From Clostridia bacterium (GTDB taxonomy: Bacteria > Bacillota > Clostridia > Oscillospirales > Acutalibacteraceae), in contig JAFYNC010000081.1 of the NCBI GenBank assembly GCA_017549905.1, positions 1 to 5,955 on the forward strand: a stretch of DNA of 5,955 bases, written 5' to 3'. Positions within the stretch are counted from its first letter, which is position 1. Each line of letters begins with the position of its first letter. Shown here piece after piece: positions 2,914 to 5,955 of the stretch. A model generated the notes under the pieces. The model saw only the letters and a program-made list of their open reading frames with translations. It did no database searches and was not told the origin of the DNA. The position numbers were made by a program, and so were the translations under genes.

Positions 2914-3428
2914 AAAAAATAAAAAGAACTAGAACGTGGACAACGAAAGCTGGTATAACTAAAACTAAAACGTATGAATATACGGTGAGTGGTAGCGGTA
3001 GAACAACTAAAAAAGGTAAAACAACTAAACAATCATTTAGACGTGTTGCTAAACAAAAAAATGAATTGTTAATTAAAGACGGCGCAGTTTTAGATCAATC
3101 TAAAATAGATGATATGACACAAAATTTAAATAGTAGTTTAAAGCGAACCGTAGAAAATAAGATAAAAGCTATTATTAAAAATAACGGCAATTTAACTGTA
3201 GAAGGTTTAGATCAACGTATTAATCAAACCACAAGATCTAAAACAGAACAGTTTGTTAAAAATTTGGGTTATACTGAAGCAGAATTTGAAGCTGAATTTG
3301 GTTTAACTGATACTGATTTACAGCAAGGAACTTTTAAACATACACAAGATGGTGTAGAGTTTACGTCTAAAACCGGCAAGAATTTTATGTTTATATGGGA
3401 TTATGATGGCGGAATCAAAATCATCTAA
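2910..3428 (+). CDS. Basic phage protein, unknown; terminal-protein candidate by context
   Basis: A 172-residue protein whose first ~55 residues are very rich in Lys, Arg and Thr (KKIKRTRTWTTKAG...RTTKKGKTTKQSFRR), suggesting nucleic acid binding. The middle is helical and polar, and the C-terminus ends in a beta-like FMFIWDYDGGIKII. I recognise no family. ATG overlaps the polymerase stop (ATGA), with GAGGT at 2896-2900, so it is translationally coupled to the polymerase. Its 3' end overlaps the packaging ATPase start by about 23 bases. Small, basic and next to a family B polymerase, it could be the terminal protein that primes replication in phi29-like phages. No priming residue can be assigned, so it might equally be a DNA-binding or virion protein. 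Confidence 0.7.
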   Translation: MKKIKRTRTWTTKAGITKTKTYEYTVSGSGRTTKKGKTTKQSFRRVAKQKNELLIKDGAVLDQSKIDDMTQNLNSSLKRTVENKIKAIIKNNGNLTVEGLDQRINQTTRSKTEQFVKNLGYTEAEFEAEFGLTDTDLQQGTFKHTQDGVEFTSKTGKNFMFIWDYDGGIKII

Positions 3429-4493
3429 AGCAGCTAAAACATATAAGGGGGAATGGTATACCGTCAACAGTATATTAGGCAACGATTGGGCACGTTTCTA
3501 TTATCTGTTAGGCGGTCGATAACCCGAGAAGCTGGTAAATCATATAGTGTTATGAAATGGGCGACAAATAGAAAACTTAAAAAGCCGGATAAAGTAAAAT
3601 TCTATTGGTTTAGATTAACAGAAACCCAACAAAAAGCACTATTAGCAAATAATGCGGGCGATTTAATAGATCCCGATTTAAAAAGAAAATATAATTTAAA
3701 GACATTTACTAAAGGAAATATTGTATATACATATGAGGAAGAAACCGTAGTAAATAGAAACGGCAAAGAAACTACAAAGAAAGTAAATCAAAAGGAATTT
3801 TGTCGTGTAATGGCCTGTTCAACGTTTTATAACGATAAAGGCCGTGGTTATTTCGATAATGAATATGACGGTGAATATATCTGCATATTAGATGAAATGA
3901 ACCGAGAACAATCTGAAAAGAATACTTTTGATATTGTATATGCATTTGTTAATCAATTAGAAAACGTTTTGAGATCTACCAAGACTAAGGTTAGAATTAT
4001 TATGATAGGTAATACATTGGAAGAAGCTTCTGATTTATTATCTGCACTTAATTTTATACCGGACGATTTTGGTAGATATAAACTTAAACGTAAAAAGGCA
4101 GTTGTCGATTATATTAAACCAAACGAGCTATATAAGCTTAGACGTGAAGAGTCAACTGCAAATTTAATGATGCCAAACGCTTCTACGTTTACTAATGAAA
4201 TAGAAATAGATCGTAGTCTACTAGTTAATAAACGTAGAAGAATTACCCCGATGAAAATTATAAAGTTTAATAAAAGCCCTGATACTTGGTTTACTGTTTG
4301 GAACGATAGAATTGTAAGTGATTACAACAGTGAACAGAAACCTGCTATTGCGATGAGGCGGTATTTAGATGAACTTTATAGTATGGAAGCAGCTAATCAA
4401 GTAATTGAAGTTTTTGATGCTAGAGCATTTAAATTTACTTCTTTAGCTTGTTTTAAAAGATTTCAAAAGCAAATGAAATTATTGAAAAAGTAA
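3406..4493 (+). CDS. phi29 gp16-like DNA packaging ATPase, reading frame interrupted by 8 bases
   Basis: ATPase driving genome translocation into the prohead. The 5' part (3406-3519, 38 codons: MAESKSS...GEWYTVNSIL...FYYLLGGR) meets TAA at 3520. The rest (3528-4490, 321 codons) starts EAGKSYSVMKWATN in another frame. Joined, they give 359 residues (phi29 gp16 has 332) and an intact P-loop GGREAGKS (residues 36-43), cf. GARGIGKS. Walker B is YICILDEMNRE (D160, E161). The C-terminal part (FTVWNDRIVSDYN...) corresponds to the DNA-handling half. Start: ATG 3406 with weak GGGA 5 bases upstream; ATG 3403 is in frame. An alternative start, ATG 3453, would give a 346-residue product, but its GGGGGA abuts the ATG and its N-terminus lacks GGR. 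Either programmed bypassing, a broken gene or an assembly error explains the gap. Confidence 0.8.
3517..3527 (+). other. 8-base coding gap with matched CGA codons (possible translational bypass site)
   Basis: CGA (3517-3519) is followed directly by TAA (3520-3522), CC, then a second CGA (3525-3527), after which the downstream frame begins with GAA. A ribosome leaving the first CGA and landing on the second would insert a single Arg and make GGREAGKS. TCG (3516-3518) can pair with CGA (3525-3527) as a tiny 3-bp hairpin. This resembles T4 gene 60 in logic, though its gap is 50 bases. Confidence 0.45.
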
Positions 4494-4497
4494 TGTT

Positions 4498-4602
4498 GGT
4501 GGTGCCCGTTTATATTCTCAGACAATTGCGATGTAGACACCCTGCGAAGAGCAGCTAATAAACAACAGATTGGTTATCTGAGTCTGGTAAACGGTGCACT
4601 CC
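4498..4602 (+). ncRNA. Structured RNA, candidate packaging RNA (pRNA)
   Basis: A ~105-base segment between the packaging ATPase and the next gene folds into nested helices. The closing helix is GTGC+CCGTTTA (4502-4512) with TAAACGG (4588-4594), one bulged T (4595) and GCAC (4596-4599), extendable by G4501:U4600, G4499:C4601 and G4498:C4602 if T4500 is bulged. An inner helix is CTCAGA (4517-4522) with TCTGAG (4577-4582), continued by CAAT (4523-4526) with ATTG (4569-4572) past a 4-base bulge. A hairpin is CTGC-GAAGA-GCAG (4542-4554). In phi29 a ~120-174 base pRNA bridges prohead and gp16, but that gene lies at a genome end. The length, fold type and position here fit the role by inference; no sequence identity to phi29 pRNA is claimed. 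No T-run follows closely enough for a terminator, and no clear own promoter is seen. Confidence 0.45.
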
Positions 4603-4617
4603 TTCATATATATTTTT

Positions 4618-4631: not shown

Positions 4632-4829
4632 ATGAATAAATGTAAAAATTGCATCTATATGCAAGAAATTCACGAATATGATTCTGGAGTTGTTTGTGAA
4701 AAGCGTGGTGATACTACTGTATGTGCAAAGTGTGTCGACTACGTGTCGAAGAGACAACTCAGAAAACTCGCGCGCATCAAAAAGAAGCTCGAAGCTTTAA
4801 AAAACAAATCTAAAACTAAAAAGAAATAA
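4632..4829 (+). CDS. Small Cys-rich, probably zinc-binding protein
   Basis: A 65-residue protein with CxxC at C4/C7, C22, and CxxC at C31/C34 (MNKCKNCIYMQE...VVCEKRG...CAKCVDYV), a spacing suited to a compact zinc ribbon or knuckle. From residue 38 on it is a strongly basic helix (SKRQLRKLARIKKKLEALKNKSKTKKK) likely to touch nucleic acid. No named family is recognised. It sits between the structured RNA at 4498-4602 and the scaffold-like gene, with AGGAG 9 bases upstream and 22 bases to the next start, so it belongs to the morphogenesis operon. A role in RNA or DNA binding during assembly is inference from charge and place. Confidence 0.75.
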   Translation: MNKCKNCIYMQEIHEYDSGVVCEKRGDTTVCAKCVDYVSKRQLRKLARIKKKLEALKNKSKTKKK

Positions 4830-5360: not shown

Positions 5361-5955
5361 ATGGCATACCCTTATACTGGGCAACTTAACCAAAACGAAA
5401 TTTTTGCTGCGTTATTCAATATGATTATTTCACAGCAAGTTTTCGCTGACAACATTTATGACACTAAATCAACACTCGCTGATATGAGTAGAGTAGACGG
5501 TTCTATGTATGGCGACACTAAACTTTACTACAGCACCGACGTTCTTAAGTCCTTCGAATGGACTGGCGATGCAGAAGCTCAAAACCTTCTTAAACTTCAC
5601 AGACCCGAAGCTCCTGAATGTCAAGCAATTACTATCGATACTTTCCGTATGATCCCCGTAACGGTAGATAACTACCTTTCTAAGAGAGCTTGGAGCACTG
5701 AAGGTGCATTTAGTTCTTTCAACTCTCAAATCTTAGGCTGGATCCGTGATACTAAGAGAGTATACGATGCAACTCTTTTCAACTCTTTCGTAGGTACTAC
5801 TTCTAGTGCTGTTGGTAAACAAACTGTTAACATTACTCTTCCTGCTGAACCTGATGGTGTTGATGATTACAACACTGAAGCTTACAACAGACTTGTAGCT
5901 CAGGCTATTGCTACTGAAATGGCTAACCTTATGGTTGACCTTGAAGACGTTTCTA
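5361..5955 (+). CDS. Major capsid protein, 5' part (runs off the window)
   Basis: Open from ATG 5361 to the right edge, 198 complete codons. It starts MAYPYTGQLNQNEIF with AAGGAG (5344-5349) 11 bases before. Regions such as VTVDNYLSKRAWSTEGAFSSFNSQILGWIRDTKRVYDATLFNSFVGTT (residues ~100-150) have the pattern of the capsid subunit of phi29-like and related phages: a strand, an aromatic helix, then a helix with VDxY/VYDA before a flexible Gly/Thr stretch. It follows the scaffold-like gene, as expected. Codon use shifts here towards C-ending and CTT/ACT/GCT codons (AAC, TAC, GAC, TTC), unlike the A/T-ending genes on the left, which fits a highly expressed structural gene. The HK97 fold is inference; the 3' end is unseen. 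Confidence 0.75.
   Translation, partial: MAYPYTGQLNQNEIFAALFNMIISQQVFADNIYDTKSTLADMSRVDGSMYGDTKLYYSTDVLKSFEWTGDAEAQNLLKLHRPEAPECQAITIDTFRMIPVTVDNYLSKRAWSTEGAFSSFNSQILGWIRDTKRVYDATLFNSFVGTTSSAVGKQTVNITLPAEPDGVDDYNTEAYNRLVAQAIATEMANLMVDLEDVS

Follow-up and report, generated by a model that had tools for sequence, protein, structure and literature searches.

An eight-base gap divides the P-loop of a phi29-like packaging ATPase gene at an apparent recurrent break point and might be crossed by a ribosomal hop

The packaging ATPase gene of a small phi29-like phage is divided within its P-loop by eight bases that open with a stop codon, at a residue where a number of short relatives of the protein also end. 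This recurrent end is the new fact reported here: of 80 short N-terminal relatives, 20 have as their last residue the P-loop Arg that precedes the gap, the highest count of any position, which makes the site look, in these predicted proteins, like a recurrent break point. We tentatively propose that the eight bases are a scar or a shrunken remnant at a hot spot, likely crossed by the ribosome in a hop from one CGA codon to another. The window, meaning the whole stretch of 5955 bases that was analyzed, is contig C117 of a 1.06 Mb genome bin (201 contigs, 77% complete). The phage segment on it comprises an HNH endonuclease, a phi29-like major capsid gene, the packaging ATPase and several unassigned frames, the features described below all lying on the plus strand.

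The N-terminal frame of the ATPase (positions 3403-3522) encodes 39 residues, reading ...FYYLLGGR before a TAA; the codons GGC GGT CGA of the P-loop Gly-Gly-Arg occupy 3511-3519. The gap itself (3520-3527) has the TAA (3520-3522) as its first codon and a CGA (3525-3527) at its end, identical to the CGA (3517-3519) that precedes it. The conserved downstream part begins with GAA at 3528 and runs to a stop at 4493; its 321 residues (EAGKSYSVMKW...), recognized from homologues and the gp16 profile, hold the rest of the P-loop and a DEMNRE segment. The Walker A loop, GxxxxGKS, is not in one frame of the window but is divided between two. This reading of the two frames, of the gap and of the identical CGA codons with a stop right after the first had been given in the initial annotation and is confirmed from the sequence, as is its statement that the other two shifts (-1 and +2) give longer junctions. 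The gene call in the protein database, P0001 (3552-4493, 313 residues), starts at an MKW behind the P-loop, and the downstream frame is also open from an upstream ATG (3453-4493, 346 residues).

The matched CGA codons, taken alone, are weak evidence. A random insert would end in the matching codon about 1 time in 100, as estimated from base composition, and short flanking repeats are frequent both at insertions and at insertion errors. CGA accounts for 6 of the 83 Arg codons in the ten window frames counted, and no exact copy of the eight gap bases was found elsewhere in the window. The position of the break is stronger evidence than the matched codons, since 20 of the 80 short relatives end at that very Arg.

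The two frames are halves of one gene, given that identity to relatives reaches 86% in the downstream part (P0001, the window itself, aside) and that the 28 residues leading up to the gap agree with the family consensus at 25 positions. A search with the 321 downstream residues, cut off at E 0.001, returned 2882 homologues. No Pfam or PHROG model matched the downstream frame of the window taken by itself; a profile built from nine relatives (A6), in contrast, matched phi29 gp16 (PDB 7jqq, 1.5e-6; 5hd9, 1.4e-5), and seven of its nine members match the terminase family phrog_2150. On these sequence comparisons the gene is a phi29 gp16-type packaging ATPase, and the earlier description of such an ATPase split exactly in its P-loop is supported. 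A structure model of the relative P0002 was poor (mean pLDDT 67.6), with residues 29-36, the start of the P-loop, below 50.

Apart from the gap, the gene looks to be under selection. None of the 136 near-invariant columns (conserved in at least 97%) was broken by the window, compared with 0 to 4 in each of 33 other representatives, these being relatives less than 90% alike picked from 152 full-length ones; the agreement of the pre-gap residues with the consensus points the same way.

The P-loop is continuous in most close relatives. In the best 120 of the 2882 homologues, 112 have the N-terminus and the P-loop in one uninterrupted frame, 111 of them reading GGREAGKS and one (P0039) having GKA. 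Seven others have their start behind the P-loop, at an MKW whose Met is residue nine of the downstream piece (the window's P0001, P0063, P0064, P0066, P0069, P0071 and P0097), and one, P0022, starts at MLGGR. At the DNA level, five of five loci (L003-L007, about half identical in protein) are uninterrupted, and a P-loop in one frame is likely the ancestral state. The initial annotation had named uninterrupted relatives as a result that would refute its bypass; such relatives do make up most of the best 120, although a bypass in the window is not thereby excluded.

These intact relatives fit a quite different explanation, namely that the gap arose as a mistake of assembly or sequencing, or else is a genuine insertion that inactivates the gene in a genome that is defective or in the minority, with no hop taking place and intact copies supplying the enzyme. 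A broken gene or a wrong assembly had also been named as the alternative in the initial annotation. We regard this as a serious possibility, short of probable. It is in keeping with the origin of the window as one contig of an incomplete, 201-contig bin, with the short repeat that flanks the gap, as is common at insertion errors, and with the out-of-frame breaks that lie at other places among the 80 short relatives (for example in P0164, P0193 and P0146, judged by eye). It does not readily account for a break at the residue where so many short relatives end, and a null packaging gene should not dominate in a phage that needs to package its DNA for spread. P0001 is one sequence present on four contigs, the longest of 5955 bases; this helps little against an error, as the four may be copies of one assembly.

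Some of the relatives that start at MKW form a group of their own. P0064, P0066, P0069 and P0071, which resemble one another at 99.4-99.7%, have no start before MKW and share about 97% identity with siblings that lack an interruption, as if a living, diversifying lineage carried a broken state with its break site upstream of MKW; P0063 is 99% identical to an uninterrupted sibling.

The short relatives were collected with a profile of N-terminal pieces (80 proteins at E up to 0.01) and their ends were placed relative to the P-loop Arg by script, three proteins, including P0152, being left unplaced. Beside the peak at the Arg there was a second one 13 residues earlier, where 14 of the 80 end after ...GND or similar (P0152, which ends in GNN, would be a fifteenth by eye); every other position had at most 4 of the 80. 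If each protein had a 5% chance of ending at the Arg, a value that we chose to equal the next highest count, the probability of 20 or more doing so would be 2e-9. The 20 are different proteins, but they show only 8 different stretches over their last 28 residues and 10 of them belong to one divergent clade ending in ...VLIGAR, so the number of independent events is smaller than 20. All are predicted proteins, whose ends may be stops or, in some, the end of a contig. The break can differ between close relatives: P0124, which ends at GGR, and P0062, which is uninterrupted, are 97.6% identical over 42 residues.

Such a sharp end at one codon, sporadic among close relatives and within a functional motif, conforms to the usual picture of phage introns, which occupy critical positions at which inexact loss would probably be fatal, as described in PMC2988022. 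The site could accordingly be one of self-splicing introns in the relatives, the intron of the window having been mostly deleted, or lost by the assembler, with the eight bases as its remnant ends. We consider this unlikely. Eight bases cannot self-splice, and no Rfam intron family matched in the window (E up to 1) or in eight related loci (at the gathering score). Moreover, the longest contigs of four MKW-start relatives (P0063, P0064, P0066 and P0071; 13.3-13.9 kb, that of P0069 being only 5.7 kb) do not exceed in length those of six siblings without an interruption (P0010, P0014, P0019, P0023, P0034 and P0052; 13.1-14.3 kb). Provided that the contigs are complete and that the frame breaks at the P-loop site, a large intron would hardly fit.

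For the relatives that end at GGR, introns, short gaps or nonsense changes at the next codon (Glu at this first site, Trp at the second) would all fit. The second recurrent end, after ...SILGND in 14 of 80, falls right before a Trp, and a UGA-encoded Trp, nonsense changes or introns would each fit there. Recoded stops are possible in the relatives, above all at this second site, where the next residue is a near-invariant Trp; a recoded stop codon was rejected as an explanation of the window, since the frame itself shifts there. One member of the VLIGAR clade, P0178, continues beyond GAR with residues that seem meaningful only when read in another frame (a weak lead, read by hand), as if a short out-of-frame offset were present there too, though a plain indel error fits equally well. 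A literature search (titles and abstract openings) returned no description of a phi29-like packaging ATPase whose P-loop is broken or carries a gap.

DNA of GGR-ending relatives was found in none of the viral-contig, phage-record, genome-contig and whole-genome sets searched. The viral contigs yielded no relative by single protein, four alignments or P-loop pattern, and the phage records gave one weak match (21% identity, E 0.5) and five short ones (25 to 51 bases, E 0.3 or worse), very near records having possibly been left out of both collections. With that same proviso, a family with 2882 database homologues showed no clear relative in either. Genome contigs gave no locus with one protein as query and five with an alignment, the uninterrupted L003-L007 described above. 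In whole-genome searches, whose sets overlap, matches were found in 1/391 genomes of the class, 1/398 of the phylum, 3/394 of the order, 3/398 of the family and 1/397 of another family of the class. They were the window itself (class, phylum, order and family sets) and L012 to L016: the L012 match has the same end, on a contig of equal length, as that of L006, L015 has the P-loop stretch of L007, L013 and L014 are distant, and the frame of L016 runs off the locus.

In the hop that we propose, the gap would be what a mobile element, or a cut by a homing endonuclease, has left at the hot spot, as a scar or in shrunken form. The peptidyl-tRNA(Arg) would leave 3517-3519 while the UAA is slow in the A site and re-pair at the CGA of 3525-3527, translation would resume at GAA, and the phage would be viable. 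The eight bases might in addition protect the P-loop target against re-cutting, as suggested for the gap of T4 gene 60. In favor of the hop, the two conserved parts abut within eight bases, the stop comes first, directly 3′ of the take-off codon, and the take-off codon recurs as the landing codon at the end of the gap. The intact state of the gene outside the gap, the recurrent end at the Arg, the lineage that starts at MKW and the precedents compared below also speak for it.

Of the other signals known from gene 60, two were not detected. No take-off stem-loop was found, positions 3480-3580 folding no better than shuffled sequences (z +0.84, 157 of 200 shuffles as good), and the 12 bases before the landing codon contain no Shine-Dalgarno-like GAG or AGG of the kind placed about 6 bases 5′ of landing in gene 60, the AGG at 3510-3512 lying further off. 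A KTYK motif, which resembles the KKYK nascent-peptide signal of gene 60 (25-30 residues upstream), precedes the take-off Arg by 24-27 residues; since 112 of 112 uninterrupted relatives have it at the same distance, it need not be an adaptation to a bypass, and it is absent in the more distant L003-L006. The same eight-base gap was seen in no relative: a shifted-frame search gave 82 candidates covering only 43-45% of the query, as would a match from (R)EAGKS onward, and a 16-mer spanning the junction had six exact matches in viral contigs, all unrelated. The gene 60 logic invoked in the initial annotation thus holds for the stop after the take-off codon and for the matched codons, and fails for the hairpin and the Shine-Dalgarno element, with KTYK, common to the uninterrupted relatives, pointing neither way; of the five sequence features tested, two carry the comparison.

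With the bypass signals limited to a stop and matched codons, no fold, no Shine-Dalgarno-like element, a KTYK that uninterrupted relatives share and no shifted-frame relatives, the hop is no more probable than an error or an inactive copy. The bypass is possible, and we call it putative.

Further ways of expressing the downstream part, namely a -1 or +2 frameshift that lengthens the loop by two or three residues, a start at the ATG at 3453, or two separate chains, appear very improbable. A frameshift would displace the Gly of GGREAGKS, which is kept in all 112 uninterrupted relatives. The ATG has a purine-rich AAGGGGG just upstream and its frame is open to 4493, but the 25 residues that it would place before EAGKS found no relative. 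We know of no precedent for a P-loop split over two chains.

Returning to the hop and its presumed hot spot, a nuclease that might act there is encoded on the same contig. The free-standing HNH endonuclease gene at 1084-1770 (Pfam HNH, 7.9e-9; phrog_1271, 3.7e-12) is a possible homing enzyme of the phage and could conceivably be the one acting at the P-loop. On the other side of the ATPase, the major capsid gene (5361-5955; Phi29_MCP, PF25622, 1.3e-7), cut off by the contig end, provides a phi29-like head-gene neighborhood, and by eye a frame resembling this capsid protein also follows in both L003 and L004.

Two further features of this neighborhood recur. Close upstream of the ATPase lie small frames of 331-377 residues (1918-2913 in the window, 3304-4437 in L004, 5468-6553 in L005) with a YANTDG/YCNTDS-like motif, which we take to mark them as polymerase-like; that of the window had no convincing match in Pfam, PHROG or PDB. 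A non-coding stretch lies upstream of a gene that we call scaffold-like from gene order (window 4494-4612, followed there by an intervening 65-residue frame; L003 1612-1740; L004 6223-6345; L006 6080-6205). All four stretches share a hairpin C-GAAGA-G, another copy of which is inside a frame of the window at 4748, while the 125 bases behind the ATPase of L005 are without it. Their folding relative to shuffles varied (z -2.84 in the window, -2.43 in L003, -0.87 in L004 and -1.55 in L006), and no Rfam family matched; the stretch is perhaps a packaging RNA like the pRNA of phi29, or a leader.

A bolder version of our proposal would make the P-loop a recurrent interruption site and the window the smallest natural bypass known, its gap rendering the homing target uncuttable and other GGR-enders carrying like gaps; this we hold to be rather doubtful. 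Were the proposed hop real, an essential motor gene would make use of a very short natural bypass, close relatives that have or lack the break would be at hand for comparison, and one could test both the minimal requirements of a hop and the idea that gaps arise to protect against homing nucleases. Even if the window were an error, the repeated break at one codon across this group of phages would deserve attention.

Among known systems, phi29 gp16 is matched by the family profile, and a phi29-like capsid gene lies on the same contig as the split ATPase. Its gene is one open frame, unlike that of the window. Inteins, too, keep the frame, whereas in the window a stop follows at once. Those in the P-loops of mycobacteriophage terminases share with the present case that mobile elements choose the P-loop of a packaging ATPase, according to a portion of PMC5050341. 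The terminase of Streptomyces phage Hau3 is likewise a phage packaging gene with a likely bypass, which an excerpt of PMC5009743 ties to the host codon UUA; the two gene families are likened by role only. Synthetic 'stop hops', covered in the same excerpt, also have matched codons around a stop and skip a few bases for one amino acid, but they take 9 bases per amino acid, compared with 11 here (CGA to CGA inclusive), and are constructs, whereas the window holds a natural gene. The bypass in T4 gene 60, like the one considered here, has a stop right after the take-off codon and identical take-off and landing codons; it spans 50 bases instead of 8, and for its putative counterpart in the window neither a take-off hairpin nor a near Shine-Dalgarno-like element was found. 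The gap of gene 60 is, in that part of PMC5009743, possibly tied to a degenerate intron and a homing nuclease.
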